Below are positions 219-28,788 of a stretch of DNA of 37,841 nt, one piece after another. Each line of letters starts with the position of its first letter. The stretch's first letter is position 1. This DNA comes from Verrucomicrobiota bacterium (GTDB lineage Bacteria > Verrucomicrobiota > Verrucomicrobiia > Opitutales > Opitutaceae). The notes beneath the pieces were generated by a model. The model saw nothing but the letters and a program-made list of their open reading frames with translations, was not told the DNA's origin and made no database searches. A program made the translations under genes and the position numbers. The stretch spans positions 1-37,841 of the forward strand of contig VHCI01000022.1 of assembly GCA_016871775.1 (NCBI GenBank), given 5' to 3'.

Positions 219-393
219 ACCCTAGCGCGATGCGCGCGGCGGGCCGCTTGGAAGGGGGATGGGCCCGAGTGGTCGCGGGAGCGTCGTCGCTGAATTGGCA
301 CGTACGTTACGGGCCAGTCACGGCCGGGTGAGAACCCTGCGACGGGCGGGCATTCCCGTTGCTGGGTGCGGGCGGGCTTCCGCCGATGGCGAT
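219..393 (+). other. Leader of the TonB receptor gene
   Basis: This 175-bp gap holds no gene that I can support. The frame of the receptor is open back to an ATG at 259, but the stretch 259-393 encodes no recognisable domain, and the signal peptide begins at 394. A small stable hairpin (GGGT-GAGA-ACCC, 326-337) is visible. Parts of 311-345 recall cobalamin-riboswitch boxes only loosely, and I do not call one. No clear -35/-10 pair was found. Confidence 0.45.
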
Positions 394-3269: not shown

Positions 3270-5075
3270 ATGAAACTAACCTACCTCCCCCTCGTGGCCC
3301 TGCTGGCCGCTCCGGCGGCGCTGTTCGGCGCCGATATCGTGGTGAATTCGAACATCACTTCGAATCGCACCTGGACCAAGACCAACACCTATATCCTCGA
3401 TGGCCGGGTGTTCGTGACGGATGGCGTCACGCTTACCATCGAGCCGGGCACGGTGATCAAGGGCAAGGCCCGCTCCGCCCAAGACGCGTCGGCGCTGGTC
3501 ATCGCGCGTGGCGGCCGGATCAACGCCTCCGGTACGGCGGCCGAGCCGATCGTGTTTACCGCCGAGGCGGACAACCTTAACGGCAACCTAGGCCAGAACG
3601 ACCGCGGCCTCTGGGGCGGCGTCGTCATCCTTGGCCGGGCCCGGACCAACACGGCCTCAGGCCAGGGGAACATCGAGGGTATCCCCACCACCGAGCCGCT
3701 GGGCATCTACGGCGGGACCGATGACGCGGATAATTCCGGCACCTTCCGCTACGCCTCGATCCGGCACGCCGGCTCGCTCCTTGGGCCCAACAACGAGCTC
3801 AACGGCCTGACGATGGGCGCGGTCGGCTCCGGCACCACGATCGAGTACGTGGAGGTGTTCGCCAACGCGGATGACGGCTTCGAGTGGTTCGGCGGCACCG
3901 TCAATGGCAAGTACCTGGTGAGCGCGTTCAACGATGACGATGCGTTCGACTGGGATGAAGGGTACCGCGGTAAGCTCCAGTTCCTCTTCACGATCCAGGA
4001 CCCGCGGGTGGGCAACCACGCGCTCGAGTCCGACGGCGGCACGACCCCGGAGGACGGCCAACCCTACGCGATCCCGACCATCTACAATTACACCGCCATC
4101 GGCTCGGGCGCGGATTCGACCAATGCCCTGAGCATCGGGCCCATCTTCCGCGACAACACCGGCGGCAAGGTCTACAGCTCCATCTTCCACGATTTCCGCG
4201 GCTATGCCTGGCGCATCGAGACCGAGAGTGCCCAGCGCGAGGACAGCGCCAAGCGCCTCGCCGCCGGGGACATCGTGATCAACAACAACCTGTTCGGCAC
4301 CTTTGGCGTGGGCACCACCGCCACGGCCCTCTTCGTGTCCCCCAATGCGACCTCCGGTGGTCCGGCCCCGGCCAGCAACTACACCGTGGCTCACATCACC
4401 GAGGCGGCCCGCCAGAACCGGATCAACACGGACCCGCAGTTCGTGGCCATCAGCCGCGCCCGGGACGGCCAGCTGGATCCGCGCCTGCGCGCCGGCAGCC
4501 CCGCCCTGCAGCTGGCGGCGACGCCCCCCAACGACGGGTTCTTCACCGCCACCACCTACCTTGGGGCCTTCACCACCTCCGGCAATTGGGCCTATGCCTG
4601 GACCAAGCTGGGCCGCGACGGCTATTTCTCGGCGGCGAGCGCCCTGAGTGATCCGGGCGCGGGTTCGACGGTCGTCGTTAACGCCGGTTCGACCACCAAG
4701 CTGAGCAACCTCTCCACCCGCCTCACGCTGGTGGCCGGCTCCACGGCCTTCCCGGGCTTCTTCCTGAACGGTTCGCAGTCCCAGACCGTGATGATCCGTG
4801 CCGTGGGCCCCGGCTTGGCGCCACTGGGCGTGGCCAATGTCGTCGCTGACCCGGTCCTAGAGCTCTACTCCGGCCAGAACAAGATCGGCGAGAACGATGA
4901 CTGGACGGGCACGCAGGCCGCCCAGCTGGCGACGCAGGTCGGCGCGTTCCCCCTGGCGGCCGGCAGCAAGGATGCGGTGCTGCTCGCGACGCTCGCTCCC
5001 GGCGCCTACACCCTGCAGGTGCGGGGCAAGACTGGCGGCGGCGAGGTGATCCTCGAGGTTTACGAGATCGACTGA
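3270..5075 (+). CDS. Secreted beta-helix-like protein, TonB receptor partner
   Basis: This 601-aa protein has a signal peptide (about residues 1-20, MKLTYLPLVALLAAPAALFG). The body (about 30-440) has repeated short beta-strand turns with phrases such as LTIEPGTVIKG, WGGVVILG and Asp/Asn-rich stretches (FNDDDAFDWDEG). These resemble right-handed beta-helix proteins that accompany TonB receptors in other phyla. Residues about 478-601 form a separate domain (GFFLNG, VMIRAVGPGLAPLG, NDDW, LEVYEID) that recurs twice in the metalloprotease at 15120-17348. The gene lies 23 bp after the receptor, which suggests a surface or periplasmic partner in capture of the same ligand. Enzymatic activity is not evident. 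The start has no Shine-Dalgarno site; CTCCC lies 5 nt upstream of the ATG. Confidence 0.8.
   Translation: MKLTYLPLVALLAAPAALFGADIVVNSNITSNRTWTKTNTYILDGRVFVTDGVTLTIEPGTVIKGKARSAQDASALVIARGGRINASGTAAEPIVFTAEADNLNGNLGQNDRGLWGGVVILGRARTNTASGQGNIEGIPTTEPLGIYGGTDDADNSGTFRYASIRHAGSLLGPNNELNGLTMGAVGSGTTIEYVEVFANADDGFEWFGGTVNGKYLVSAFNDDDAFDWDEGYRGKLQFLFTIQDPRVGNHALESDGGTTPEDGQPYAIPTIYNYTAIGSGADSTNALSIGPIFRDNTGGKVYSSIFHDFRGYAWRIETESAQREDSAKRLAAGDIVINNNLFGTFGVGTTATALFVSPNATSGGPAPASNYTVAHITEAARQNRINTDPQFVAISRARDGQLDPRLRAGSPALQLAATPPNDGFFTATTYLGAFTTSGNWAYAWTKLGRDGYFSAASALSDPGAGSTVVVNAGSTTKLSNLSTRLTLVAGSTAFPGFFLNGSQSQTVMIRAVGPGLAPLGVANVVADPVLELYSGQNKIGENDDWTGTQAAQLATQVGAFPLAAGSKDAVLLATLAPGAYTLQVRGKTGGGEVILEVYEID
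4701..5072 (+). repeat. Shared secreted C-terminal domain, copy A
   Basis: Residues about 478-601 of the beta-helix-like protein. The order of landmarks is LSNLSTRL, GFFLNG, IRAVGPGLAPLGV, ADPVLELYSG, NDDW, GAFPLAAGSKDAVLL, LAPGAYTLQV and ILEVYE. The same landmarks occur in the same order in two tandem copies at 15123-15935. I do not know a family name for it. Confidence 0.8.
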
Positions 5076-5178
5076 GCGGGGTTCCGGCGCCGCATGCGGG
5101 CGGCGGCAGCTGGCCAACGGGGCGGATAGGTCGGGCACGGGCCCGCCTTCCACCTGCTTGCCTTAAGCGAGGTTCGAT

Positions 5179-5832
5179 TCAGCCGGCCCGGCGCAGCGCG
5201 AGCTGGCGGCGGGCGGCCTCGGCGGGCGGTCCCGACGGGAGCGCCGCCAGCGAGGTTTCGAGCAATTTGGCGGCCTCCGCACCCTGCCCGGCGGCGGTGA
5301 GGCGTTCCGCGGCCACCAGGGCGGCGTGCGCCGCGGCCTGGCGGAGCGCCGGATCGCCGTTGCGCAGCATTTCCCCGAGCACTTGGGCGGCGGTGGGGTC
5401 CGCGATCAGGCCGAGGGCGCCGATGGCCTCCGGGGCGGCGGCGTGGCCGGGCTTGGCGACGATGCGCCGGAGGGCCGGCACGGCGGCTTTTTCGCGCCGC
5501 ACCCCAAGCGAGTCGATCACCCCGGCAAGTTGCCGGCCCTGCAGCGTCTCCAGGGCCCCGAGCAGCGCGGCCCCGGCGGCGGGGTCGGCCATCGATTCGA
5601 GGCCGCTGCGGGCGTAGTCGCCGAGCTGCTCGTGCGCGAGCAGGGAGGCGAGGGCGGGCACCGCCGCGGGGCCCGCGAAATCCGCGAGCTGCTGGCAGGC
5701 GAGCGCCTTCTCGCGCATCCCGGCGTCAGACTTCAGAACGGCGAGGGCGGCCGACTCCCGCGGGTCGGGCGCGGCGACGCACCCGGTGAGCGCCAGCAGG
5801 AGGCAAGGAAGGAGGAAACGGCAGGCTTTCAT
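5179..5832 (-). CDS. HEAT-repeat lipoprotein
   Basis: A 217-aa exported lipoprotein. The ATG at 5832 is chosen because it opens a lipoprotein signal (MKACRFLLPCLLLALTGC, lipid-acceptor Cys18); an upstream ATG would add 17 residues before it. The mature part is a series of alpha-helical HEAT-like repeats with recurring 'AVPAL' units (AAVPALASLL, AAVPALRRIV) and ala-rich helices, a fold used as a protein-binding scaffold. It starts 14 bp after the stop of the Gfo/Idh/MocA oxidoreductase and is probably co-transcribed with it. No catalytic motif is visible. It may support an envelope complex, but the partner is unknown. Confidence 0.8.
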   Translation of the reverse strand: MKACRFLLPCLLLALTGCVAAPDPRESAALAVLKSDAGMREKALACQQLADFAGPAAVPALASLLAHEQLGDYARSGLESMADPAAGAALLGALETLQGRQLAGVIDSLGVRREKAAVPALRRIVAKPGHAAAPEAIGALGLIADPTAAQVLGEMLRNGDPALRQAAAHAALVAAERLTAAGQGAEAAKLLETSLAALPSGPPAEAARRQLALRRAG

Positions 5833-5846
5833 CGGGGGGCGGGGGA

Positions 5847-7121
5847 TCAGGCGTGCCAAGGGGCGCGGCGGGCACGGCTGCACATCCGGTTGGCCTCGGC
5901 GTCGTTGACGAACGTCTCGGACTGGGGATCAAACGTGACCTTGCGGCCGAGGCGCCAGCCGATCGCGGCGACGTGGGAGACGATGTGGCCGCGGCGGGTG
6001 ACGTCCGCGTTAGCCGCGGGCTGGCCGCGGGTACGGATGCAGTCGAGGAAATCGCGCACGTGCTTGGAGGGGTCGGTACCGGCCATCGTGGCGGGGGCGC
6101 CTCCCTCCAGCAGGCGCGGATTGGAGACCGCGACCTTGCCGGAATCGGCCGCCTCGACCCAGCCCTCGTCGCCCTCGTAGCGTACGGGGCAGGTGCCGGG
6201 GGCCTTCCAGTCGCCCTCGCCCTTGAAGCCGGCACGCCGCATCACGAGCTTCACGCCGTTGGCGTAGCGCGCGTGGATCGTCTGGCCCTCGGCCTCGTAC
6301 GAGACGGGCACGGTGGCGTCGGCGCTCGCTCCCCACTGGCAGAGGTCGACCGTGTGGGCGCCCCATTCGGGCAGCGCGGCGCCGCCGTGAAAGTCAAAGT
6401 AGCCCCGCCACCGGCCGTTGATGTAGTCCTTGTGGAAGGGCCGCCAAGGCGCCGGTCCGAGCCAGCGGTCCCAGTCGACCAGTTCGCGCGCGGGCTGCGT
6501 CTCCGCGGGGAGCCATTGGTGGCTTTCCTCGAGCGCGAGGATGCCGGCGTGGACCGTATGGATGCGGCCGAGGCGGCCGGTGCGGGCGAGGTTCGCGGCC
6601 CACTTGAAATTGTCGACGGTGCGGCGTTGGGTTCCAGCTTGGAACACGCGCCCGTAGCGGTTCATCGCGTCCGCCAGTTCCTGGCTCTCGCGGACCGTCA
6701 TGCTGCAGGGCTTCTCGCAATAGACGTCCTTGCCGGCGCGGGCGGCGAGGATCGAGGCCACCGCGTGCCAGCGGTCTCCGGTCGCGATCACGACGGCGTC
6801 GATGTCCTTCCGGCCGAGCACGTCGAACATTTCGCCCGTCTTCGCGCAGTCCTGGTTCTCGTAGGCGCGGTTGACCATCACGCGGACGACCTCGCGGCGG
6901 GTCTCCTGAACGTCGGCGATCATCACGAACTGGACGTCGCGCTGGCTGAGGAAGGACTTGAGCACCTCGCGGCCGCGCGGCCCGAGGCCGATGCCGCCGA
7001 CGGTGATGCGGTTGCTGGGGGCGACGGCCCCGTTGAGGCCGAGGACGGAACCGGGGATGAACAGCGGCGCGCCAAAGGCGACGGCCGACTGGCGCAGGAA
7101 ACGACGGCGGGAGAGCTTCAT
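5847..7121 (-). CDS. Tat-exported Gfo/Idh/MocA-family oxidoreductase
   Basis: A 424-aa NAD(P)-dependent sugar or polyol oxidoreductase-like protein exported by the Tat pathway. The ATG at 7121 opens with MKLSRRRFLRQSAVAFGAP, a twin-arginine signal. A Rossmann dinucleotide site follows (about residues 39-50, ITVGGIGLGPRGRE), then the family signature EKP at 136-138 (VYCEKPCSMTVRE) and a C-terminal substrate domain. These Tat-borne family members are abundant in Verrucomicrobiota and Planctomycetota and are usually tied to sugar degradation; the substrate here is unknown. It leads a unit with the HEAT lipoprotein 14 bp downstream. Upstream lies the stop of a broken DUF6250-like gene (7184), so the oxidoreductase may once have belonged to a longer sugar-use operon. 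Confidence 0.9.
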   Translation of the reverse strand: MKLSRRRFLRQSAVAFGAPLFIPGSVLGLNGAVAPSNRITVGGIGLGPRGREVLKSFLSQRDVQFVMIADVQETRREVVRVMVNRAYENQDCAKTGEMFDVLGRKDIDAVVIATGDRWHAVASILAARAGKDVYCEKPCSMTVRESQELADAMNRYGRVFQAGTQRRTVDNFKWAANLARTGRLGRIHTVHAGILALEESHQWLPAETQPARELVDWDRWLGPAPWRPFHKDYINGRWRGYFDFHGGAALPEWGAHTVDLCQWGASADATVPVSYEAEGQTIHARYANGVKLVMRRAGFKGEGDWKAPGTCPVRYEGDEGWVEAADSGKVAVSNPRLLEGGAPATMAGTDPSKHVRDFLDCIRTRGQPAANADVTRRGHIVSHVAAIGWRLGRKVTFDPQSETFVNDAEANRMCSRARRAPWHA

Positions 7122-7183
7122 CGAGGTGTGGGGATGAAGCAGATTACCTCCCCCGTCCTCCCGCGCAATACCGAAGCGCGGCC

Positions 7184-7562
7184 TCAATCCTCGGCGTGGA
7201 CGGTGAAGTCCGCGAACTCAAGGCGGCTGCGGACGGTGCGGAACGCGAACCAGCCTGCGCGCAGCGGTTCCGGGTCGCGGAAACGGAACAGGATCCGGTC
7301 GTCGCAGGCGAAGCTGGCCTCGCCGTCCGCGCCCACGCGCAGCGCGATGCGGTGGTCGTGGTCCGGCCGCAGGAGGTACCGCGGATCGTCCAGGTCGTGC
7401 TCGGGGCGCAGGGGCCGCGCGCCGGTGCCGTCGTAGCGGCGGAAGCGGGTGGTGGTGTTCCCGTTGCCACCGGAGCCGAAGTGGTAGGTAAGGAGCGAAT
7501 TGTATTCGGGGAAGCGGCCGCCGCGGCGAGGAAACGCCGCCGGAACCAGCTTAAGCGCGGGC
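7184..7562 (-). pseudogene. C-terminal remnant of a DUF6250-like gene
   Basis: Between the efflux outer-membrane factor and the oxidoreductase, one minus-strand frame is open from about 7562 to a TGA at 7186-7184 and encodes a recognisable protein end. The landmarks run FPEYNSLLTYHFGSGGNGN, NTTTRFRRYDG, RPEHDLDDPRYLLRP, GWFAFRTV and FADFTVHAED. I recognise these as the C-terminal half of the secreted family I know as DUF6250 (the glycosidase-like beta-sandwich proteins of Verrucomicrobiota). The name should be checked. No ATG, GTG or TTG start in this frame lies before the homologous part, and the N-terminal half and signal peptide are missing; the frame runs into the stop of the outer-membrane factor gene at 7566. 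I read it as a gene truncated by deletion or by insertion of the efflux operon. Confidence 0.72.
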
Positions 7563-7565
7563 CGC

Positions 7566-8894
7566 TCATTCCCCGGCGGCGAAGCGCAGCGCGTACTGGG
7601 CCTGGTTGTACTCGGCGATCACCCCGATGTATTCCCGCCGGGCGCGGACGAGTTCCTCCTCGGCTTGGAGGTCCTCGAGGGCGGCGCTCACGCCGGTCTC
7701 GCGCCGTTGGCGGGAGAGCCGCGCGGTGGTGTCGGCGGAGGCCAGGGCGGCGCGGGCGAGCTCGAGCTGGCGGGCGAGGGAGCGGACACGGACGTGCTGT
7801 TCCACCACCTGGCGGCGGACGGCGTCTTGAAGGATTTCCTGCGCGATCCCGGCCTGGCGTTCGCGGGCGGATGCCTCGCGTTCCCGGTGCGGGTCGAGGA
7901 GTCCGCCGGGGCCGACGCGCCACGAGAGGCCGAGGGCGAAGTCGCCGCTGAAGCCCCAGTCGCGGGTGACGCGGGAGCCGGCGGGGCCGCCGCCGAGGCC
8001 TCCGAGGGAGGCCTGCGCGCCAATCGCGGGCACGAGGGGGGCGACCTCCGCGCCGCGGCGGGCGAGGCGGGCGGCCTCGCGGCGGGCGGCGGCCTCGTCG
8101 AGCTCGGGCCGGCGGGCAAGGGCGGTGGCGATGAACGGTGCCGGGGAATCACCGGGCTCGAGCAGCCGGAGCGGCTCGAGCGAAGCGTCTGCGGGTGTGA
8201 GGTCGACGGCGGGATCGAGGCGGAGCGTCTCGGCGAGCCGGGCGGCGGCGATCCGTTGCTCGCCCTGGAGTCGGGCGACGCTAAGGGTGGCGCGGTCGCG
8301 GGCGGCCGCGATGCGGGCAATGTCCCCGCGGAACCCGAGACCGGTCTCGCCGAGGACGGCAGCCTGCCGGGCGTGACGTTCGAGGATGGCGGCGGACTCC
8401 TCAGCCGCGGCGACGGCGGCCCGGGCGCGAAGGAGCTCAAAGTAGCCGGCGGCGGCCCGGAGGGTCATCTCCCGCTGGCGGCTGGCGGCCCCGGCCTCGG
8501 CGGCGCGGGCCTGCTGGCGGGAGATCAGGTTCTGGAAGTACACCTCGCCCGGTTCGAGCTGGGCCTGCACCGCGAGTCCGGCGGCCAGCGACTGCTTGTC
8601 GGCGGCGAAGACCGGCCCGTTGACCGCCTGGACGTTCTCCTCGTGGCGGCGGATCGCGACGGAGGGCGTGATCCAGGGGAGGAAGCGGTTGCGGGCGAGG
8701 TCGCTGGCGGCGCGGGCCTCGGCGATCCGCTCCTGGGCCAGGCGCACCTCGAGGTTGGCGGCGCCGGCGAGCCGCAGGGCCGTGGGCAGGTCGATGGGCG
8801 CGGGCGCGGCGGCCGGCTGGGCGGGCGCGACCTGGGCCAGCAGTAACGCAAGGCCGCCGGCGATCCGGGCGGAGAGGCGGGAGGCGGGGCTCAT
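7566..8894 (-). CDS. TolC-family outer-membrane factor of RND efflux pump
   Basis: A 442-aa outer-membrane channel protein that would complete a tripartite efflux pump. It has an N-terminal signal peptide (about residues 1-29) and two outer-membrane-efflux repeats of long, alanine/arginine-rich helices (for example LRLAGAANLEVRLAQERIAE at about 40 and its counterpart in the second half). The length fits the family. Its ATG overlaps the adaptor stop as ATGA (8894-8891), which indicates translational coupling as the last gene of the pump-adaptor-channel operon. I see no lipobox. It ends four bases before the frame of the DUF6250-like remnant, so this is probably the edge of a rearrangement. Confidence 0.9.
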   Translation of the reverse strand: MSPASRLSARIAGGLALLLAQVAPAQPAAAPAPIDLPTALRLAGAANLEVRLAQERIAEARAASDLARNRFLPWITPSVAIRRHEENVQAVNGPVFAADKQSLAAGLAVQAQLEPGEVYFQNLISRQQARAAEAGAASRQREMTLRAAAGYFELLRARAAVAAAEESAAILERHARQAAVLGETGLGFRGDIARIAAARDRATLSVARLQGEQRIAAARLAETLRLDPAVDLTPADASLEPLRLLEPGDSPAPFIATALARRPELDEAAARREAARLARRGAEVAPLVPAIGAQASLGGLGGGPAGSRVTRDWGFSGDFALGLSWRVGPGGLLDPHREREASARERQAGIAQEILQDAVRRQVVEQHVRVRSLARQLELARAALASADTTARLSRQRRETGVSAALEDLQAEEELVRARREYIGVIAEYNQAQYALRFAAGE

Positions 8895-9934
8895 TTGGCT
8901 TCGACGGCAGTGACGGCCTGCCCCGCCGTGAGGGTGATCTTGCCCGGCACCAGGACGCGGGCGTTCTCGGTGAGGCCCTCGAGGATCTCGGCGTGGGTGC
9001 CGTCGTTGAAGCCGGCCTTGACCGCGATGCGGGTGGCCTTGCCATCGACGAGCGTGAAGAGGAAGGCCGAGGCCTTCTCGCGGATCAGCGCGGTGGCCGG
9101 GACCAGCAGGGATCCGCGGCGCAGTTCCACGCCCGCCCGGACGGAGACGTACATCCCGGGCCGCAGCGTGCCGTCGGCATTGGGCAGGTCAGCCTCGACC
9201 GCGAGCGAGCGGGTGCGCTCGTCGAGGGCGCCGGCGTGGCGGCTGACCTTGGCGGTGAAGGTGCGGCCGGGGAAGGCGTCGGTGGTGACGATCACGGGCT
9301 GGCCGGGCGTGACCCGCGAAGCCTCGATCTCTGGTACCGCCACCTGAATCCGCACGACCTGGTAGTCCGCCAAGGTGACGATTGCGGCGGCCGCGGGGCC
9401 CGCTCCGGCGGTGGCGGCGGGGACGAAGGCGCCGGGATCCACGTGACGCTGGGTGATCGTGCCGGCGAACGGCGCGGTGAGCCGGCCGTAAGCGAGGAGG
9501 GCTTCGTTCTGCCGCAGGGCCGACTGGGCGGCGGCGAGGCGGGCGGCGGCCTGGTCGGCGAGTTGCGGGGTGATGAGGTCCGGGGCCTGCGCGCGGGCGG
9601 CCTTGACGCGGTCGGCCTCAGCCTGGGCGAAGCGGGCCTCGGCCTCGAGTTTTCCGCGTTCGGCCGCGAGCTCGGGGAGGTCAAGCTCGGCTACCACCTG
9701 GCCGGCGCGGACGGTGTCGCCTCGGTCCACGCTGATGGAGCGGACGTAGCCGGGAACCTTGGCGTGGAGCGTCACCTGCTGCTGGGCGCGCACCGAGCCG
9801 GGGAGGGTGACGAAGCGATAGATGTCGCCCCGCCGGGGCGAGGTCGCCGGGACCTCGGGGGCGGGCTGGGCCGCGGGGAGCGAGGCGGGGGCGAGGAGGC
9901 AGGCGCTGAGCGCGAGGGAGCGGAGCGAGGTCAT
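8891..9934 (-). CDS. RND efflux periplasmic adaptor (MFP)
   Basis: A 347-aa membrane-fusion protein that links the inner-membrane pump to the outer-membrane factor. It has a signal peptide (about 1-22, ending LPAAQP), a lipoyl/barrel-sandwich half-motif (VTLHAKVPGYVRSISVDRGD, about 54-73), an alanine-rich helical hairpin (about 85-150), the returning lipoyl half (GRLTAPFAGTITQRHVDPGA) and a beta-barrel (VVRIQVAVPEIEASRV) before the membrane-proximal domain. There is no lipobox Cys, so it is probably anchored only by its signal or is soluble. It starts 14 bp after the pump stop and overlaps the channel gene by 4 bp. The substrate is unknown. Confidence 0.92.
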   Translation of the reverse strand: MTSLRSLALSACLLAPASLPAAQPAPEVPATSPRRGDIYRFVTLPGSVRAQQQVTLHAKVPGYVRSISVDRGDTVRAGQVVAELDLPELAAERGKLEAEARFAQAEADRVKAARAQAPDLITPQLADQAAARLAAAQSALRQNEALLAYGRLTAPFAGTITQRHVDPGAFVPAATAGAGPAAAAIVTLADYQVVRIQVAVPEIEASRVTPGQPVIVTTDAFPGRTFTAKVSRHAGALDERTRSLAVEADLPNADGTLRPGMYVSVRAGVELRRGSLLVPATALIREKASAFLFTLVDGKATRIAVKAGFNDGTHAEILEGLTENARVLVPGKITLTAGQAVTAVEAK

Positions 9935-9948
9935 CGGGGAAGGTGGGA

Positions 9949-12900
9949 TTAGGCGGAGCGCGCGGGGGAATGGTGGGGGCTGGCGGGATCGTCGGGATCG
10001 AGGGAGGCGGATTTCACCCGCTGGCCGGTGAGCAGGGCGAAGACCCCGGGGAGCACGAACAGCGTGGCCAGCGTGCCGAGGAAGAGGCCTCCGACCACGG
10101 CGCGGCCCAGCGGGGCGGTCTGGCCACCGCCCTCGCCGCCGCCGAAGGCGAGCGGGAGCATCCCGGCGATCATCGCGCAGCTGGTCATCAAAATCGGCCG
10201 GAGCCGGCTGCGGCTACCTTCCAGCGCCCCGGCCACCGGGTCTCCCCCGGCGGCGCGGGTGCGCTCGGCGAACGTCACGAGGAGGATCGCGTTGGCCACC
10301 GCCACGCCGATGGCCATAATCGCGCCCATCGCCGACTGGATGTTGAGCGTCGTCCCGGTAAGGAGGAGCATCGCTGCGACCCCGGCGAGCACGGCGGGGA
10401 CGGTGGAGAGGACAGCGAGCGCGAGGCGGACCGACTGGAAGTGGGCCACCAGCAGCAGCAGGATCACGACCACGGCGATCGCGAGGCCCGTGCGGAAGCC
10501 GCCGAGCAGTTGCTCGAGGGGGACGATCTGGCCGCGGAGGTCCACCTTGGTGCGGGCCTCCGGGGCGGGTCCGGCCGCGGCGATGGCGGCGCGGATCTGC
10601 CGTACCGCCGTGCCGAGGTCGATCCCGTGCAGGTTCGCGGTGACCGTGACCAGCCGGGCGAGGTTGTAGCGCTCGTAGGTGCCGACGCTGGTGCCGGCCG
10701 TGAAGGTGGCGAGATTCCGCAGCAGCACGGGGGCGCCGAAGTTGGAGGTGATCGGCACGTTCTGCAGGTCCTCGACCGAGGTCGTGCGGGACTCCGGGAT
10801 CTGGACCTGCACGTTGAAGCTGATGCCGGAGTTCGGGTCCGCCCAGTAGACGGGGACGGTGAAACGACTCGACGTGGTGGCGGCGACGACCGAGCGGGTG
10901 ACGTCGCTCATCTGCACCCCGAGCTGCCCGGCGCGCTCGCGGTCGACGTTCACCGCGAGGCTGGGGTAGTCGAGCGTCTGCGCCACCTGGACATCGCGGA
11001 ACCCCGGGAGCTGGCGCAACTGCCCGATGATGCGGTCCGCGTAGGCCTTGCTCACGGGCAGCGAGGAGCCGCTGATCGCGATCTCGACCGGGGTGGGGGA
11101 ACCGAAGCTCATCACCCGCGAGACGATGTCCTGCGGCTCGAAGGAGAGGCGGACGTCCGGCAAATCCTGGGCGAGGGTCGCGCGGAGGCGCTCCTTCAGG
11201 TCCTCCAGCCGCGCGGTGGCGCCAGGCTTGAGCTGCACCGCGAGCCAGCCCTCCTCGGGGCCGCCGTTCCAGAGGTGGACTAGATTGACGGGGAAGCTCG
11301 AGTTGTGGACGCCGACCATCCCGATGGAGATATCGACGCGGTCCGCGCCGCCGGCCTCGCGTTCGATGGCCCGGAGGATGCGGCCGGCCGCGACCTCGGT
11401 GGCGGCGACCTGCGTGCCGCTGGGGAGGCGGAAGCGGAGCGCGAACTGGCCGCTGTCGGAGGCCGGGAAGATCTCGGTGCCGAGGCGGCCGCCGATCAGC
11501 CAGATCGCGGCGGCGCAAGCGGCGAGATAGGCGAGCGTGAGGGGCCAGCGCCCGGCGACGAGCCCGCCGAGGAGGGAGCCATAGGCGCGGGCGAGCCCGC
11601 CGGGCGCGGCGGCGCCGTGGGCGGCGCGGCCGCGGAGCAGCCAGACCGAAAGCACCGGCACGAGCGTGCTCGACAGCAGGTAAGAGGCGATCATCGCGAA
11701 GCCAACCGCGAGGGCCAGCGGGACGAAGAGCGCCTTGGCCGCGCCCTCCATAAAGAACGCTGGGATGAACACGCTCAGGATGCAGAGCATCGCCAGCAGC
11801 CGGGGCCAGCCGGTCTCGGCGGTGCCGTCAAGGGCGGCGCGGGCCGGGGAGGCGCCGCGGCCGAGGTGCGTGTGGATGTTTTCCACCGCCACGGTCGCTT
11901 CGTCCACGAGGATGCCGACCGCGAGGGCGAGGCCGCCGAGGGTCATCAGGTGGATCGACTGCCCGCTGATCCAGAGCGCGAAGGCGGCCGCGAGAAGGGC
12001 GAGGGGGATGTTCACTACCACGATGAAGGCGGTGCGCCAGTCGCGCAGGAAGAGCAGCACCATCAGGCCGGTGAGCAGCGCCCCGAGGCCGCCCTCCTTG
12101 AGCAAGTCGCGGATGGAGCGCTCGACGACCGGGGACTGGTCAAACACGTAGCTGACCTTTATGTCCTCCGGCAGGATCTTCTGGAACTCGGGTAGGTTCT
12201 CCTTCACCAGCCGGACGACCTCGAGTGTCGAGGCGTCGGCGCGCTTCGTCACCGGCAGGTAGACCGTGCGGCGTCCGTTCGCGAGGGCGTAGGAGGTCGT
12301 GACGTCCGCGCCGTCCTCGACCGTGGCGAGGTCGCGCAGGTAGACGGTGCCCTGGTCGGTGCGGCGGAGCAGTGTCGCCTCGAGGTCCTTCGGGTTGCGG
12401 ACGATGGCGTTCAGTTCGACGATCGGGTATTTGTCGCCGAGGTTGAGGTTCCCGGAGGGGCTGATCGGGTTGGATTCGGCGAGGGCCTTGACGATGTCGT
12501 CGGGCGAGAGCCCGTAGGCGCGCATCCGGTCGGGGTTCACGTTGACGATGATGCCGCGCGAGCTGCCGCCGAACGGGGGAGGCGCGGAGACGCCGGGCAG
12601 GGTGGCGAAGGAGGGACGGACGCGGTTGAGCGCCTGGTCCTGCATCTCCCCGAGCGTGCGGTTGGGGTTGTCGGAGGAGAAGACGAGGTAGCCGACGGCG
12701 ACGCTGCCGGCGTCGAAGCGCATCACGAAGGGCGCCACTGTCCCCGGGGGCATGAAGGCGCGGGAGCGGTTCACCTGGGCGATCGTCTCGGACATCGCCT
12801 GCGACATATCCGTGCCCGGGTGGAACTGGAGCTTCATGATCGAGGCTCCCTGGATGGACTTCGACTCCACGTGCGAGATGCCCGCGATGTAGAGGAAGTG

Positions 12901-13107
12901 GTACTCGTAGCGGTAGGTGAGGTAGCCCTCCATCTGCGCGGGATCCATCCCGCCGTAGGGCTGGGCCACGTAGATCGTGGGCACGCCGAGCGGCGGGAAC
13001 AGGTCCCGCGACATCCGCTGCAGGGCGAGGCCGGCCGCGAGGGCGACGGCGACGACGAGCACGACGACGGTGAAGGGGCGGCGCAGGGCCAGCGAGGGGA
13101 GATTCAT
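9949..13107 (-). CDS. RND efflux pump permease
   Basis: A 1052-aa inner-membrane proton-driven transporter with the standard duplicated layout: an N-terminal transmembrane helix (FTVVVLVVAVALAAGLAL), a large periplasmic porter/docking region, the TM2-6 block, and the same again in the second half. In TM4, AcrB's proton-relay pair Asp407-Asp408 is Asp402-Glu403 (GILVDEATVAVENI). In TM10 the position of AcrB Lys940 is Ala938 (IGVAVANAILLV); the SRLRPILMTS motif of TM11 is kept. The relay therefore differs from AcrB, as in part of the broader heavy-metal/hydrophobe RND group, and the substrate class cannot be told. It leads the operon: CTCCC lies 10 nt before the ATG, with no Shine-Dalgarno site. 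No regulator gene adjoins it. Confidence 0.95.
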   Translation of the reverse strand: MNLPSLALRRPFTVVVLVVAVALAAGLALQRMSRDLFPPLGVPTIYVAQPYGGMDPAQMEGYLTYRYEYHFLYIAGISHVESKSIQGASIMKLQFHPGTDMSQAMSETIAQVNRSRAFMPPGTVAPFVMRFDAGSVAVGYLVFSSDNPNRTLGEMQDQALNRVRPSFATLPGVSAPPPFGGSSRGIIVNVNPDRMRAYGLSPDDIVKALAESNPISPSGNLNLGDKYPIVELNAIVRNPKDLEATLLRRTDQGTVYLRDLATVEDGADVTTSYALANGRRTVYLPVTKRADASTLEVVRLVKENLPEFQKILPEDIKVSYVFDQSPVVERSIRDLLKEGGLGALLTGLMVLLFLRDWRTAFIVVVNIPLALLAAAFALWISGQSIHLMTLGGLALAVGILVDEATVAVENIHTHLGRGASPARAALDGTAETGWPRLLAMLCILSVFIPAFFMEGAAKALFVPLALAVGFAMIASYLLSSTLVPVLSVWLLRGRAAHGAAAPGGLARAYGSLLGGLVAGRWPLTLAYLAACAAAIWLIGGRLGTEIFPASDSGQFALRFRLPSGTQVAATEVAAGRILRAIEREAGGADRVDISIGMVGVHNSSFPVNLVHLWNGGPEEGWLAVQLKPGATARLEDLKERLRATLAQDLPDVRLSFEPQDIVSRVMSFGSPTPVEIAISGSSLPVSKAYADRIIGQLRQLPGFRDVQVAQTLDYPSLAVNVDRERAGQLGVQMSDVTRSVVAATTSSRFTVPVYWADPNSGISFNVQVQIPESRTTSVEDLQNVPITSNFGAPVLLRNLATFTAGTSVGTYERYNLARLVTVTANLHGIDLGTAVRQIRAAIAAAGPAPEARTKVDLRGQIVPLEQLLGGFRTGLAIAVVVILLLLVAHFQSVRLALAVLSTVPAVLAGVAAMLLLTGTTLNIQSAMGAIMAIGVAVANAILLVTFAERTRAAGGDPVAGALEGSRSRLRPILMTSCAMIAGMLPLAFGGGEGGGQTAPLGRAVVGGLFLGTLATLFVLPGVFALLTGQRVKSASLDPDDPASPHHSPARSA

Positions 13108-13203
13108 GCCGGGGCGGGGGAGGGGACGCCGGCGAAACGGCGCGGGCGTCGAGTGGTTACGAGCGGGAAGCGGGTGGCAAGCGCCGAGGCCGGGGCCAGG
13201 CGC

Positions 13204-14157
13204 TCAATTCACCGCGGTGAGGCGCGCGACGAGGAAATCCTCGATCGAGGGGTGGGTGACTCCCGGCGCGCCGGGGTACACGAGCTCGCAGGGCACGCCC
13301 GCGGCAAGCAGGCGCTCCTGCAGCTTCGCGCCGAAGTTCGCGGTGTGCGTCGGGTCCTTCTGCGGCTGGCCAAGGGCCGGTGGCGCCGGATAGAGCAGGT
13401 AGGTCGGCGGGTCGCCGGCGCCCGCGTGGGCGAAGGGCGAGTAGCGCTGGATCCACGGGAGGATGCGTTCCCGCGCGGCGAGGAAGGCGGGGAAGCTGCG
13501 GTCGCGGGTCGCGAGGTCGTCCGGGTTGCTCATAAACCCGAAGGCGTGCCCGCCGTAGACGCTGTTGGGCGTCCACGCCTGCATCTCCGCGGGATCGAGG
13601 GTCGTCTGCGCGCCGGAGACTGCGACGCACCAGAGCCGGGTCGACTGGCGGGCCACCGGATCCGGGCTGGCGGGCTCGGCGAGGTCGTCGCCGAGGGCGA
13701 GGTAGAGGCTGGAGCAGGCGCCGGCGGAGCCCCCGGTGGCGGCGATGCGGCGCGGATCAAGGTTCCACTCGGCGGCGCGGTGGCGGAGGACCTGCAGGAC
13801 GCGGGCGGCGTCGGCGAGCGGCCAGGCGACGGGCGGCTCCACGCCGGCGCGCATCGCCTGGGTGGTGAAGCGGTAGTTGGCCGAGGCGACCGAAATACCC
13901 GCCGCGAGGTAGCGGGCTAGGCCGGCGACCTTCCCCTTGTCGCCGCGGACCCAGCCGCCGCCGTGGAGGTGGAGTACCAGCGGGGTTTGGCGGGGGGAGG
14001 GCGCGAGCCAGAGGTCGAACTGCTGCCGCTCGTGGGTGCCGTAGGCGACGTTGGCGTGGGTGGGGGCGGGGCCGGGGGGTTCGGGCGTCGCCGGCGGGGT
14101 GGCGGCGGCCGCGAGGGCGGCGAGGAGCAGGGCGGCGAGGACCGGGCGGGGTGACAT
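13204..14157 (-). CDS. Exported alpha/beta hydrolase (esterase-like)
   Basis: A 317-aa hydrolase of the hormone-sensitive-lipase/BD-FAE type. The ATG at 14157 opens a signal peptide (about 1-20, VLAALLLAALAAAATPPA), whereas the upstream in-frame ATG adds only low-complexity sequence. The oxyanion-hole motif HGGGW is present (LVLHLHGGGWVRGDKGK). The nucleophile elbow is GGSAGA with Ser144, and a candidate catalytic His lies in GVTHPSIEDF near the C-terminus. Such enzymes remove acetyl or feruloyl groups from plant polysaccharide or cleave short esters; the substrate is not evident. It stands alone on the minus strand, divergent from fpr 118 bp away. CTCCC is 8 nt before the ATG. Confidence 0.86.
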   Translation of the reverse strand: MSPRPVLAALLLAALAAAATPPATPEPPGPAPTHANVAYGTHERQQFDLWLAPSPRQTPLVLHLHGGGWVRGDKGKVAGLARYLAAGISVASANYRFTTQAMRAGVEPPVAWPLADAARVLQVLRHRAAEWNLDPRRIAATGGSAGACSSLYLALGDDLAEPASPDPVARQSTRLWCVAVSGAQTTLDPAEMQAWTPNSVYGGHAFGFMSNPDDLATRDRSFPAFLAARERILPWIQRYSPFAHAGAGDPPTYLLYPAPPALGQPQKDPTHTANFGAKLQERLLAAGVPCELVYPGAPGVTHPSIEDFLVARLTAVN

Positions 14158-14237
14158 GGGGGCTGGGGAGCGTGCGGCGGGAGCGGTGGCGAAGGCAAGT
14201 CCGGCCGCCGTCCTTGCCCGCGCCGGCAAGTCTCGGG

Positions 14238-14267
14238 TTGCTCTGCGGCGGTCCCCGTCGCCATATT
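14238..14267 (+). promoter_or_regulatory. Candidate fpr promoter
   Basis: TTGCTC (14238-14243) and CATATT (14262-14267) are 18 bp apart. The predicted start of transcription would fall within a few bases of the fpr ATG at 14276, implying a leaderless or nearly leaderless message. No Shine-Dalgarno site is present. Box matches are only partial. Confidence 0.35.
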
Positions 14268-14275
14268 TGTGGGCG

Positions 14276-15097
14276 ATGAGTACCCCGCCCCCTGCCTCCC
14301 CCTACAATGCGACCGTCGTGGGCCGCGAGCCCCTCAACCCGCAGCTGCTGATTTTGCGGGTGCGGCCCTCCGCCGGGGAATTCAACTTCACGCCGGGCCA
14401 GTTCGCCGTGCTGGGGCTGGCGGGGCGGGAGCCGCGCGTGGCGGATGCGCTGCCCGAGGATGTGGCGCCCGAGTCCGAAAAGCTGATCCGGCGCGCCTAC
14501 AGCATCGCCTCGGCGAGCGTCGAAAAGGCTTACGTGGAGTTCTACCTCGCGCTGGTCGCGAAGGGCGGCCTGACGCCGCGGCTCTTCGCCCTGCCGCACG
14601 GCGGTCGCGTGTTCCTCGGGCCCAAGGCGAGCGGCCTCTTTACCCTAGACCGCGTGGCTCCGGGGAAGGCGGTGTTCCTCATTTCCACCGGCACTGGTCT
14701 CGCGCCGTACCTGTCGATGCTCCGCACGCTGCTCATTCAAGACACCACGCGGCGGTTCGTCGTGCTCCACGGCGCGCGCTGCAGCTGGGACCTCGGCTAC
14801 CGTGGCGAGCTCGAGACGATCGCGCGCCTGCGGCCGAACGTCACCTACATCCCGTCAATCACTCGCGCCGAGCAGGACCCGCACTTCGCTGGCCAGGTGG
14901 GGCGGATCCAGAAGCTGTTGGAACAGGGAGTCGTCGAGCGCCTTTCGGGGGTGCGGCTGGACCCCGCGGAGGCGGATGTCTTCCTCTGCGGGAATCCCGA
15001 TATGATCGCCTCGGTGCGCGGCCTGCTCGAGGCCCGCGGCTTTACCCCGGACCACGGCAAGCAGTCCGGAACGATGCACGTCGAGGAGTATTGGTGA
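14276..15097 (+). CDS. fpr: Ferredoxin/flavodoxin-NADP+ reductase
   Basis: A 273-aa FAD enzyme that moves electrons between NADPH and ferredoxin or flavodoxin. The FAD site reads RRAYSIAS (about residues 72-79; family RxYS), NADP-binding uses STGTGLAPYLSML, and CGNPDMI marks the C-terminal NADP lobe. The protein ends HVEEYW, matching the short aromatic C-terminus (YW) of the bacterial Fpr subclass (E. coli/Azotobacter type) that stacks on the flavin. The ATG at 14276 is chosen because everything upstream in frame is low-complexity and unrelated. The gene is single. It converges on the metalloprotease operon, with 22 bp between stops. Its likely role is redox balance or supply of reduced flavodoxin/ferredoxin for biosynthetic Fe-S enzymes. 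Confidence 0.93.
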   Translation: MSTPPPASPYNATVVGREPLNPQLLILRVRPSAGEFNFTPGQFAVLGLAGREPRVADALPEDVAPESEKLIRRAYSIASASVEKAYVEFYLALVAKGGLTPRLFALPHGGRVFLGPKASGLFTLDRVAPGKAVFLISTGTGLAPYLSMLRTLLIQDTTRRFVVLHGARCSWDLGYRGELETIARLRPNVTYIPSITRAEQDPHFAGQVGRIQKLLEQGVVERLSGVRLDPAEADVFLCGNPDMIASVRGLLEARGFTPDHGKQSGTMHVEEYW

Positions 15098-15104
15098 GGC
15101 GCTC

Positions 15105-15118
15105 CCCGCGGCCGCGGG
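15105..15118. other. 14-bp GC palindrome between convergent genes
   Basis: CCCGCGGCCGCGGG is a perfect palindrome lying between the fpr stop (15097) and the metalloprotease stop (15120), followed by TTT on the + strand. It could help end transcription in both directions. It has no loop and only a three-T tail, so this is a weak call. Confidence 0.3.
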
Positions 15119-15119
15119 T

Positions 15120-17348
15120 TTAGGGCACCTCGTAGACCTCGACCAGCGCGGTGCCGGCGCCGGGGCCGGTCACCTGGGCGGTGTAGTTGCCCGGCGGCAG
15201 GGTGAGCAGGAGCATCGCGTCCGTGCTGTCCGCGGCAATCGGGCGGAAGGCGCCGACCGCCTCGCCGGTGGCGGTGAGCTGCGGGTCGCCGCCCCAGTTG
15301 TCGTTGCTGGCGATGCGGCGCGAGGCGCTGTCGAAGAGCGCCAGCCGCGGGTCGCCCAGCACTTGGGCAGCGGGCAGGCCGAAGGGCGTGAGCGACGGGC
15401 CCATCGCCCGCACCAGCACCGTCCGGGCGGTGCCGCCGCCGAGGACGAAGCCCGCAGTGAGGACCGAGTCGGCGGGGATCGGCTGCAGCACGGAGACGTT
15501 GACCAGCCGCGGGGTCGCGGACGCGAAGGCGGGGCCAGGGGTGGCGTCGAACAACTCCGCGAGGACGGCGCCGGCGGGTGATCCGTTCGCCGCCACCACG
15601 ATGCTGTAGGGGCGGGGGGCGAGGGCGGGGCGGTGCAGCGCGGCGTCGCGTGAGCCCGCGCCGAGCGCGAAGGCCCCGGTGGCGTCGAAGATCGCCGCGA
15701 TGCCGGGCTCTGTGCCCCAGTCGTCGTTCGCACCCGCGGGGGCGGCGCCGATCAGCTCGAGGCGCGGATCGGCGAGGACGTCGTCGAGCCCGAAGGCGGC
15801 GAGGCCCGGCCCGATGGCGCGGACGAGGAGCGGCTTGGCGCCGGTGGTGCCGGCCCCGCCGATCACGGTGCCGACCGTGAAGGAGGGGGCGGCGGGCGTG
15901 AGCCGCGTGAGGATCGAGAGGTTGGCGAGGCGGCCGGGTGCGGCGCCCGCGGCGAGGGAGAGGGTTGCGCCGGCCGAGGTCGCGGTGCCGCCTGCATTTG
16001 TGGCCACGCAGGTGTAGGCGCCGGCGTCGGCGGTCCCGACGTTGCGCAGCACCAGCGTGCCGCGGGTGGCGCCCGCCAGCGCGGTGCCGTTGCGGCGCCA
16101 CTGGTAGAGGGGCGCGGGGCTACCCTCGGCCTCCGCGCGGAAGACAACAGTGCTGCCCGGGGAGATGGACTGCCCCAGTGGTTGCAGGGTGAAGGTGGGC
16201 GCGGTCACCGCCGGGGCCACCGTCAACGGGGCGTCGGCGCTGGCCACCGCGCCGCCGCTGTTGCTCACCTCGACCGAGTAGATGCCGGCGTCCCCGGGCT
16301 GGACGTCCGTGAGCGTGAGCGTGTCGCTGGGGGTCGCGAGCCCGAGGGCGACGCCGTTGCGTCGCCAGAGGTGGTAGCGCGGAGTGGAGCCGGTGGCGGT
16401 GACCGTGAAGGCGACCGTCTGCCCGGTGCGGGCGGCAGCGGGTTGCGGCTGGCGCACGATCACGGGGGCGACGGCGCGGGTCGTGACGTTGAGGGTCATG
16501 GTGCTGGTGACCGAGCCGCGGGCGTTGGTGACGGTCACGCTCCAGATGCCGCTGCTGACAGTGGCGACGTTGCTCAGGGTCCACGCGGCGGTGGAGACGC
16601 CCTGGGTCGCGCCGTTGCGCCGCCACTGGTAGGTGAAGGGAGCGGTGCCGGAGACGCCGACCACGAAATCCACCGCGTCGCCCTCGACCGGGTTCTGGTC
16701 GACGAGCGGCAGGGTGAGCCGCGGGGCGACCGCGCCGTCTGCGGAGGCGTAGAGGAAGGCGGCGCCGGCGCGGTCGTCATCCGTAAGCACATCCGTGTCG
16801 CCCGAGCGGCTGTTCATAATTGCGGAGACGAATTGCCCGGCCTCGTCGGGGTGGCCGAGGCCGAGGGCGTGGCCGAACTCGTGGAGCGCGACGCGGATGA
16901 ATTCCGCGTTGAGGCTGCCCGCAGGGTGGCGGAGCGGGCCGCGGTAGGCGTCCCAAGCGTACTTCGTATTAAAGATCACGTCGCCCTCGGTGCGGCGGGT
17001 ACCGACGCGCCAGATGGTGTTTACGGCAAGGGTGGATTCGCCGAAGGGGCGGCCGAAGATGTCGCCGCGGAAAAGGACGTTGTTCACCCCGTTGCCGTCC
17101 CCGGCGGGCAGGGCCGAGTCGAGGACCCACGTGAACTTGCTGCGCACGAGGGAGCGGTTCCACTCCGCGAGGAGATCCGCCGCGACCGCGTTCCAGCCGC
17201 GCGGGTCGCTGGCGGGGGCGCCCGGGCCGAGCTGGAGGTGCATCTGAATGTTGCCGTCGGGCCAGACGGGGCTGCCTCCGACCGGGATGAAGGCGGGGGC
17301 GGGCAGTGCCGGGGCAAGGGCGGCGAGGAGGGCGAGGCGGGGTCGCAT
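15120..17348 (-). CDS. Secreted matrixin-like metalloprotease with Ig-like domains
   Basis: A 742-aa secreted zinc protease. A signal peptide (about 1-19) is followed directly by a catalytic domain with the metzincin site HEFGHALGLGH (His156, His160, His166, Glu157) and a Met-turn (SAIMN, Met178). I see no propeptide with a cysteine switch. Three Ig-like domains follow at about 203-295, 296-385 and 386-470, each with a YQWRRNG/HLWRRNG strand. Two tandem copies of the C-terminal domain shared with the protein at 3270-5075 complete it (about 472-612 and 613-742). It starts 2 bp after the stop of the exported protein upstream, so the two form an operon. The proteolytic target is unknown; the Ig domains may hold it to a polymer or the cell surface. 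Confidence 0.9.
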   Translation of the reverse strand: MRPRLALLAALAPALPAPAFIPVGGSPVWPDGNIQMHLQLGPGAPASDPRGWNAVAADLLAEWNRSLVRSKFTWVLDSALPAGDGNGVNNVLFRGDIFGRPFGESTLAVNTIWRVGTRRTEGDVIFNTKYAWDAYRGPLRHPAGSLNAEFIRVALHEFGHALGLGHPDEAGQFVSAIMNSRSGDTDVLTDDDRAGAAFLYASADGAVAPRLTLPLVDQNPVEGDAVDFVVGVSGTAPFTYQWRRNGATQGVSTAAWTLSNVATVSSGIWSVTVTNARGSVTSTMTLNVTTRAVAPVIVRQPQPAAARTGQTVAFTVTATGSTPRYHLWRRNGVALGLATPSDTLTLTDVQPGDAGIYSVEVSNSGGAVASADAPLTVAPAVTAPTFTLQPLGQSISPGSTVVFRAEAEGSPAPLYQWRRNGTALAGATRGTLVLRNVGTADAGAYTCVATNAGGTATSAGATLSLAAGAAPGRLANLSILTRLTPAAPSFTVGTVIGGAGTTGAKPLLVRAIGPGLAAFGLDDVLADPRLELIGAAPAGANDDWGTEPGIAAIFDATGAFALGAGSRDAALHRPALAPRPYSIVVAANGSPAGAVLAELFDATPGPAFASATPRLVNVSVLQPIPADSVLTAGFVLGGGTARTVLVRAMGPSLTPFGLPAAQVLGDPRLALFDSASRRIASNDNWGGDPQLTATGEAVGAFRPIAADSTDAMLLLTLPPGNYTAQVTGPGAGTALVEVYEVP
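15123..15512 (-). repeat. Shared secreted C-terminal domain, copy C
   Basis: Residues about 613-742 of the metalloprotease: PRLVNVSVLQ, AGFVLGGG, VLVRAMGPSLTPFG, LGDPRLALFDS, SNDNW, GAFRPIAADSTDAMLLL, LPPGNYTAQV and LVEVYE. The order is the same as in copies A and B. It is the last domain of the protein, as in copy A. Confidence 0.8.
15513..15935 (-). repeat. Shared secreted C-terminal domain, copy B
   Basis: Residues about 472-612 of the metalloprotease: GRLANLSILTRL, VGTVIGG, LLVRAIGPGLAAFGL, LADPRLEL, NDDW, GAFALGAGSRDAAL, LAPRPYSIVV and LAELFD. It precedes copy C in tandem. LANLSILTRL is closer to copy A (LSNLSTRL) than to copy C. Confidence 0.8.
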
Positions 17349-27605: not shown

Positions 27606-28081
27606 AAGGGAACGAGCAGGGCGACGGCGTGCGCGGCGATGGCGCGGCCCTGGCCGAGTTCGCCGACCCCCTCGTGAGTCGTGGCCTTGAGGCCGATCTG
27701 CCCGACGGGGAGGCCGGTGGAGCGGGCGAGGGCCGCCTTCATCTCCGCGAGCCGCGGCTGGATGCGGGGGCGTTCCGCGATGAGGGTTAGGTCGACGTTG
27801 GCGGGCTGCAGCCCGCGGGCGCGCAGCTCCGCGCAGACGCGCTGCAGCAGCAGTTGGGAATCGATCCCGCGGTAGGCGGGGTCGGTGTCGGGAAAAAAGT
27901 GCCCGATATCCGGCAGTCCGGCGGCCCCGAGGAGGGCGTCGCAGAGCGCGTGCGTGAGGCAGTCGGCGTCGCTGTGACCCTCGAGGCCGAAGTCCGCCTC
28001 GAAGCGGACGCCCCCGAGCACGAGGGGTCGTCCCGGTGCAGTGCGGTGGATGTCGTAGCCGTGGCCGATGCGCGGGATCAT
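27602..28081 (-). CDS. ispF: 2-C-methyl-D-erythritol 2,4-cyclodiphosphate synthase
   Basis: A 159-aa enzyme of the MEP isoprenoid pathway that closes CDP-ME-2-phosphate to the cyclodiphosphate with loss of CMP. The metal and substrate motifs are all present: GHGYDIHR near the N-terminus (the Asp and His ligands), GHSDADCLTHA, DIGHFFPDTDPAYRGIDS and LKATTHEGVGELGQGRAIAA. The length is normal for the trimeric enzyme. It overlaps ispD by 4 bp upstream and the lipoprotein gene by 4 bp downstream, so it lies inside one tightly coupled operon. IspD and IspF often form one bifunctional protein in other bacteria; here they are separate. Confidence 0.97.
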   Translation of the reverse strand: MIPRIGHGYDIHRTAPGRPLVLGGVRFEADFGLEGHSDADCLTHALCDALLGAAGLPDIGHFFPDTDPAYRGIDSQLLLQRVCAELRARGLQPANVDLTLIAERPRIQPRLAEMKAALARSTGLPVGQIGLKATTHEGVGELGQGRAIAAHAVALLVPL

Positions 28082-28788
28082 CGGCGGTCCGCCGCACGTT
28101 CGCGGGCGAGCAGGAACTCGACGTAGGCGAGGTCCGCGGGCGTGGTGAGCTTCGGGTTGGGGCGGTCGTTCGCGAGCACCGCGACGGGGTGGCCGAGCAG
28201 TTCAACGGCCTGCGCGTCGTCGGTGACGGGGAGGCCGCGGGCGGCGACGCGGGCGTGCGCCTGGACGATCAGGTCGCGGGCGAAGACCTGCGGCGTCTCT
28301 GCGGCCCAGAGGCGGTCGCGGGCGAGGGTGCGGAGCCGCTCGGGGTTGCCGCGGGAACCCTGAGGCCGGAGTTCCTTGATCGTGTCGGTGACGCGGCGGG
28401 CCAGCACTACGGCGTGCTCCCGGCGGACGATCTTGAGCAGCGCGACCAGCTGGTCGGGCTGGATGAGCGGGCGGGCGCAGTCGTGGATGAAGACGTGGGC
28501 GATGTCGGCCGGCAGCGCCTCGAGGGCAAGCTGCACCGAGTCGCGCCGCTCGCGGCCGCCCCGGACCAGCAGGGTGGGGGTGGGGGCGCAGGCGGCAAGT
28601 GCGAGCATCTGGCGCTGATCGCGGTAGACGACCACGTGGAGGTCCGCGACCCCGCTGGCGAGGAAGGCGGCGGCCGAATGGGCGAACACAGGCCGGCCAG
28701 CGAGGGGGGCGAGGACCTTGTCGGCTACGGCCCCGGCCATCCGGGAACCGCTGCCGGCGGCGAGAAGGATGGCGGCGGTGCGGCCCAT
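28078..28788 (-). CDS. ispD: 2-C-methyl-D-erythritol 4-phosphate cytidylyltransferase
   Basis: A 236-aa MEP-pathway enzyme that joins MEP to CTP, giving CDP-ME and pyrophosphate. The N-terminal nucleotidyltransferase motif AAILLAAGSGSRM is followed by a Lys (DKVLAPLAGRP). The family motifs HDCARPLI, RVTDTIKE and LWAAETPQVF are in order. The length is typical. It begins 5 bp after the pyrF stop and overlaps ispF by 4 bp (ATGA). Confidence 0.96.
   Translation of the reverse strand: MGRTAAILLAAGSGSRMAGAVADKVLAPLAGRPVFAHSAAAFLASGVADLHVVVYRDQRQMLALAACAPTPTLLVRGGRERRDSVQLALEALPADIAHVFIHDCARPLIQPDQLVALLKIVRREHAVVLARRVTDTIKELRPQGSRGNPERLRTLARDRLWAAETPQVFARDLIVQAHARVAARGLPVTDDAQAVELLGHPVAVLANDRPNPKLTTPADLAYVEFLLARERAADRR

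Follow-up and report, generated by a model that had tools for sequence, protein, structure and literature searches.

Dozens of exported-looking proteins of the Opitutaceae and their relatives, unrelated in other respects, carry a domain of about 125 residues that belongs to an unnamed family; it lies at one end of the mature chain, nearly always as a tandem pair (about 265 residues). The sharing of this domain suggests a common tag by which proteins are sorted, or held outside the cell; sequence alone does not separate sorting, anchoring and binding. Our leading reading, offered tentatively, is that the pair serves as a terminal attachment module by which exported proteins are retained on the surface or in the matrix. 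The domain was recognised in a stretch of 37,841 nucleotides, hereafter the window, from a Verrucomicrobiota bacterium of the family Opitutaceae (contig VHCI01000022.1). The features concerned are as follows.

259-3246, plus strand: TonB-dependent receptor with a carboxypeptidase-regulatory-like domain, the genomic partner of the next gene
3270-5075, plus strand: TonB-partner protein, 3' of the TonB receptor gene, with beta-helix-like repeats (by eye)
4698-5072, plus strand: domain, single copy, at the end of the 3270-5075 protein, closing ...EVYEID-stop
15120-17348, minus strand: matrixin-like metalloprotease with a Peptidase_M10 stretch, three Ig stretches and then the domain pair
16749-16997, minus strand: Peptidase_M10 match (matrixin residues 118-200)
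15540-15935, minus strand: domain, copy 1 of the tandem pair in the matrixin
15123-15512, minus strand: domain, copy 2 of that pair, forming the chain end and closing ...EVYEVP-stop

The first-pass annotation had proposed that one domain occurs three times in the window, in two proteins otherwise unrelated, and both points were borne out. In the alignment of the three copies 34 of 137 columns are invariant, and the two matrixin copies show 38% and 46% identity to the one at 4698-5072. A profile made from the three returned 53 rows at E<=1e-3 from the source genome (3.78 Mb, 274 contigs); since 50 of these are further places (best E 8.2e-43), two of them weak and both on one contig end, the likeness goes far beyond chance. 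The domain boundary was extended, as an N-terminal R-L-x-N-x-S strand belongs to the domain. The matrixin contains Peptidase_M10 and three Ig stretches, and the protein at 3270-5075 has no Pfam match at E<=1. Elsewhere the window holds an RND efflux set on the minus strand (7566-13107: an AcrB-type pump, an HlyD-type fusion protein and an OEP), and, between 24422-28205 and at 35110-37569, two adjacent SBP_bac_5 solute-binding proteins and a PSCyt1-PSCyt2-PSD1 protein, respectively.

The domain had been put forward as one without a name, and it remains so: no Pfam or NCBIfam family reached its cut-off for the window copies, and a named identity in either collection was rejected. A sequence search for solved relatives gave nothing convincing (best E 0.17), and no description of this domain was found in the titles and abstract openings that made up the literature searched, many subscription papers lying outside it. 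Among named sequence families NCBIfam NF038127 (FDP_fam, the DVUA0089 family) alone matched the module repeatedly, though weakly: it hit 24 of 50 own-genome copies (best E 4.3e-7), the match to the first window copy spanning the D-P...N-D...P-G-x-Y part. When the genome was searched, window copies scored 23.0 and 23.2 bits, and the first copy alone 24.5, against a cut-off of 29. That cut-off was passed at one module copy of the own genome (29.1 bits) and at two in another genome, G099; two more places in G013 pass it, beyond those placed at module copies.

Structure prediction returned one fold for all three window copies, as the first-pass annotation had anticipated. Modelled from window 15126-15935 and 101 other pairs, the pair (pLDDT 95.7, pTM 0.90) has the element order bbb-a-bb-a-bbb in both halves, and the same order appears in the single-copy model (window 4695-5072, 116 rows; pLDDT 91.5, pTM 0.86). 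Compared by VIA, the single copy gave nine best rows with Z between 9.4 and 10.7, seven of them titled collagen-binding domain or PPC and the other two covering residues 419-517 of the subtilase Tk-SP, which we take to be its C-terminal jelly roll. Tk-SP ranked highest (Z 10.7; 2.8 A over 96 residues), with ColG s3b at Z 10.4 (2.4 A over 91), PPC 5sv5 at Z 9.9 (1.9 A over 88) and ColH s3 at Z 9.6; below these came the p24 GOLD domain (9.2), PliG (9.1) and LipL32 (8.9). With Foldseek, the best five single-copy matches had E values from 5.6e-5 to 1.3e-4, the third being the p24 GOLD domain. The domain, put forward as uncharacterised, is thus not of unknown fold: on the models, the closest known fold is the PPC/collagen-binding-like jelly roll. 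For the whole pair all VIA rows had Z below 8, and the best Foldseek match was 5iku (E 8.6e-8) at an rmsd of 17.5 A; the modelled halves are therefore arranged unlike those of ColG.

The likeness to PPC and collagen-binding domains thus comprises the predicted jelly-roll fold (the ColG, ColH and PPC 5sv5 rows, Z 9.4-10.4), carriage by secreted proteins and, for ColG, a C-terminal tandem. There are also differences. The Pfam model of PPC (PF04151) had no match at E<=1 in 50 copies or in the two window proteins, and the profile-profile comparison was weak, with probabilities of 11 (profile A2) and 80 (profile A6); five shuffled controls and one reversed control, made for A2 only, gave at most 0.2. 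The domain is longer (about 125 residues compared with 96-117 in solved single-domain chains), its model has two short helices, and its placement is terminal. Binding to protein substrates or to collagen is reported for PPC domains of other proteins (PMC3327674, PMC6168687 and PMC5889866), and the first of these papers names D-x-D-x-Y as the binding residues. In the register of the weak profile match, the first D is present in 213 of 260 copies, the second in 0 of 260 and the Y in 2 of 260, so that the binding residues of PPC appear not to be kept, a point that counts against attachment. As to the value of a tandem, PMC5889866 reports that adding s3a to s3b left the affinity to a short collagen peptide unchanged; avidity is therefore not established for that pair.

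What sets the family apart is the regularity of its architecture. A local search of fetched stretches counted 51 copies in 27 reading frames of the own genome, with two copies in 24 frames and one in three (the TonB partner, a protein, L051, that looks hydrolase-like by eye and the decayed L054). Frames at loci from named genomes gave two copies in 111 of 113, one in two and three in none. For the frames closed by a visible stop (25 from the own genome and 108 from named loci, many of them cut 5' by a contig or locus end), the figures were two copies in 129 of 133, one in four (of which L092 is cut on the 5' side) and three in none; L054, decayed and with a partial copy, L040, open at a contig end, and five open frames of the 113 were left out of this count. 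In the same 133 frames the tail past the last copy measures 1-3 residues in 103 and at least 310 residues in 30, with no frame between 4 and 309; the excluded L054, with a tail of 96 residues, is the exception to terminal placement. Decayed-looking copies were seen at two own-genome places (L054 3141-3986 and G000:C124 9502-9866), one being partial and the other carrying an internal TAG.

By a crude test, a signal peptide precedes 25 of the 30 N-terminal modules, ending 5-16 residues before the module, which in these frames starts 28-55 residues from the methionine; of the other five frames a contig end cuts one, and the remaining four look signal-peptide-like by eye. The same test was positive in 78 of the 103 C-terminal frames, and many of the others begin at the edge of a contig or locus. 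Among 30 control loci with a PF04151 domain, taken from this phylum, 1 has that domain within 25 residues of a stop, and in 11 of the 30 no stop was reached within the locus. The proposal of a C-terminal module accordingly stands in part: the module was terminal in all 133 counted frames but N-terminal in 30 of them. In DUF1800 and CHRD proteins the pair directly follows the signal peptide (L037, L039, L040, L044 and part of L056-L134).

We infer that the pair moves as one unit. In a tree of 109 copies, poorly resolved, first and second copies tend to cluster by label: 10 label changes were counted for C-terminal first copies and 16 for C-terminal second copies, against 27.7 each after shuffling, and one each for N-terminal first and second copies. 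The clustering of first copies with first copies thus appears with weak tree support. The sampled N-terminal first copies form one group in this tree, and the N-terminal second copies likewise.

Against this background the TonB partner, with its one copy, is an exception, two copies being the normal state. One copy is found in the five domain-bearing homologues of the same family for which a locus was available (the own protein included), all ending in [VIL]-D-COOH; G260, the sixth genome of the family that gave a match, lies outside this set. In 4 of 4 same-family homologues inspected, the gene has on its 5' side a frame whose end, by eye, resembles that of a TonB receptor; in a fifth, from another family, the flank is too short to judge the neighbour. 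Since homologues in genomes with no module match either have no such domain or have a different module at the end, the domain is dispensable for the fold of this cargo, which weighs against attachment. Other Verrucomicrobiota homologues of the TonB partner often end in a different module of some 60-120 residues finishing like F-Y-R-V (C-terminal ends of L139, L141, L143, L146, L147, L154, L156-L158 and L164), possibly another terminal tag.

The cargo is diverse. The 133 frames yielded 101 distinct stretches, and the 89 that were scanned matched 81 Pfam families at E<=1e-5, led by Ig_3 (47 stretches), SGL (11), NHL (10), DUF1800 (7), CHRD (7) and PQQ-like propellers (6), with cyclophilin also among the commonest; matrixin accounts for 3 of the 89. 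N-terminal modules precede DUF1800 and metallophosphoesterase and, by eye, beta-lactamase-like and Kelch-like cargo. Searching Verrucomicrobiota with a profile, as had been advised, uncovered many unrelated, mostly exported-looking proteins with the domain at a chain end.

Their distribution agrees with the suspicion of a lineage-specific domain, as the family is centred on Opitutaceae both in a 387-genome sample and among named loci. In the sample, with at most 11 candidates scored per genome, 23 of 387 Verrucomicrobiota genomes matched the first profile, two of which (G134 and G114) look false or internal on reading. Within the Opitutaceae 18 of 37 sampled genomes match and 19 do not, two of the 18 holding only two copies. 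Copy counts in twelve chosen genomes were at least 137, at least 94, at least 93, 71, 64, 59, 39, 37 and 29, with three zeros; the first three are lower bounds because scoring stopped at 150 candidates. A far-genome profile (A6) gave 22 of 387 compared with 23 of 387 for the first, each with no more than 11 candidates scored per genome, which disposed of the idea that a wider Verrucomicrobiota family had been overlooked; in the far variant of other orders, P-x-D-x-R-E-S-A-I replaces the window-type A-F-x-L-x-A-G-S-x-D-A. The 79 loci kept from named genomes, the best 79 of at least 550 relatives, are all titled Opitutaceae, Opitutae, Opitutia, Opitutus, Verrucomicrobia or Verrucomicrobiota. Similar R-A-x-G-P sequences presumably occur in other phyla. 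Spread on phages or plasmids was considered and set aside, no relative being found in viral contigs or PLSDB.

We thus envisage the following scheme. Two PPC-like jelly rolls in tandem would make up one module, added to exported proteins at either terminus of the mature chain. Export by Sec would come first; once folded, the pair would bind a shared ligand, either on the cell surface or in the extracellular matrix, and would keep the varied cargo there. The binding of a ligand, its being shared and retention rather than export are the steps that we infer. What the analysis establishes is the one predicted fold, the near-strict pairing, the terminal placement, the promiscuous cargo, the copy number, the concentration in one lineage and the extra conservation of the last strands and chain end of C-terminal copies; of these, fold, pairing, placement and cargo speak for attachment. 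We prefer it to an export signal on the ground that the module is used at both termini.

Conservation of the chain end is also the reason why a signal of the type IX kind stays the main rival. According to this explanation, which we regard as doubtful, a machine of the outer membrane would read the C-terminal pair as a signal for export or sorting, and its N-terminal use would be derived. PMC4804311 describes the C-terminal domain (CTD) of type IX substrates as a beta-sandwich at the extreme C-terminus with the signal in the last 22 residues. The module shares with it the predicted beta-sandwich at the extreme C-terminus, the varied exported cargo and the constrained last residues, and differs in being paired and in standing at the N-terminus in 30 of 133 frames, which weighs against the rival. 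The complete lack of tails between 4 and 309 residues speaks for it, as does the final residue: proline is last in 83 of 103 C-terminal frames (14 of 22 in the own genome, 47 of 57 among scan hits and 22 of 24 in other frames of the same loci), the commonest ends being E-V-P (36) and E-L-P (18). At the equivalent position, proline is found in 78 of 100 terminal second copies compared with 2 of 100 first copies, and, in N-terminal pairs, in 0 of 29 first and 3 of 29 second copies. The patchiness of the module within a single family fits a sorting signal as well.

A similar picture emerges from conservation, used here descriptively. The named loci had been found with two peptide patterns, and conservation in them is therefore biased; the chain-end comparison was repeated on sets outside the peptide scan. 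Over columns 102-118 the terminal copy surpasses the first copy of its class in conservation by 0.47 bits in the own genome (-0.47; 20 copies each) and 0.61 bits in frames outside the scan hits (-0.61; 23 each), the biased scan hits giving -1.04; in N-terminal pairs the difference is smaller (-0.22; 29 each). Second copies are also more conserved in columns 1-31, by -0.20 to -0.32 bits in all four sets. Conservation of the chain end would be superfluous for a simple binding tag and so counts against attachment. The link between proline and the terminal position is not distinguishable from common descent: proline occurs in 80 of 103 C-terminal copies versus 5 of 157 others, yet only four supported independent contrasts were found, none opposite (p 0.5). 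Repeated independent gain of a terminal proline was not borne out on this basis. Moreover, of 11 closed frames in a genome from a different order, 8 have Asp or Glu as the last residue and 3 have Pro. Two further results concern the type IX system itself. SprA was found in 0 of 387 genomes, in a search that had no positive control, and T9SS tail models, which NCBIfam includes, are absent from the seven NCBIfam families matched at E<=1 by 50 copies. Also against a sorting signal, PMC3327674 reports that the PPC domains of one protease are unnecessary for its secretion.

The module also invites comparison with PEP-CTERM/exosortase sorting, which likewise relies on a C-terminal tag carried by many exported proteins. 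Exosortases are common in the window's family (57 of 61 genomes). However, a C-terminal pair leaves no room for a helix and a basic end (0 of 133 tails measure 4-309 residues). Exosortase dependence was rejected as a rule: exosortases occur in G045 and G088, which lack the module, and none was found in G351, with its 29 copies. In a far relative (L167, from G169, which has only two copies) a 56-residue stretch follows the pair and shows by eye a PEP-CTERM-like end, with a hydrophobic helix and a basic terminus.

Less probable than a sorting signal is a substrate-binding module serving each cargo separately, on a polysaccharide or a protein, like the collagen-binding domains of collagenases or carbohydrate-binding modules. 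Both kinds of domain are among the fold neighbours. The cargo argues against it, since the commonest families are Ig, NHL, PQQ-like, DUF1800, CHRD and cyclophilin, and the sole glycosidase-linked family among the 25 commonest of the 81 is a lambda-carrageenase propeller, in 3 of 89 stretches. PPC domains of this phylum, for their part, are used without the terminal two-copy arrangement. Collagenases differ further in that matrixin is so minor a cargo here and in the arrangement of the ColG pair. Equally improbable is a structural cap, by which the pair would seal the chain end against proteases or stabilise the protein with no partner involved. A C-terminal proline and a missing tail would resist exopeptidases. 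PMC3327674 also describes the PPC domains of a protease as essential for thermostability; the pairing and the patchy distribution are left unexplained by a cap.

Beyond attachment as such, a bolder proposal, which we consider unlikely though worth stating, takes the pair for the recognition tag in a surface-targeting system of the Opitutia that is as yet undescribed. A partner in the envelope would read the pair, together with the chain end when it is C-terminal (mostly E-[VL]-P-COOH), and would deliver or fix tens of proteins outside the cell, in the manner of T9SS in Bacteroidota but with other parts.

To our knowledge, the placement of proteins on the surface of Verrucomicrobiota has been little studied. 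The family described here is unnamed and its predicted fold is a known one; the strictness of number and place is unusual, and its function would be that of a tag. If this is true, a considerable share of the exported proteome would bear the tag, given its 27 frames here and at least 137 domain copies in a relative. The whole tagged set could then be named and tested at once, and the 265-residue pair with its fixed end would offer a defined handle for finding the partner.
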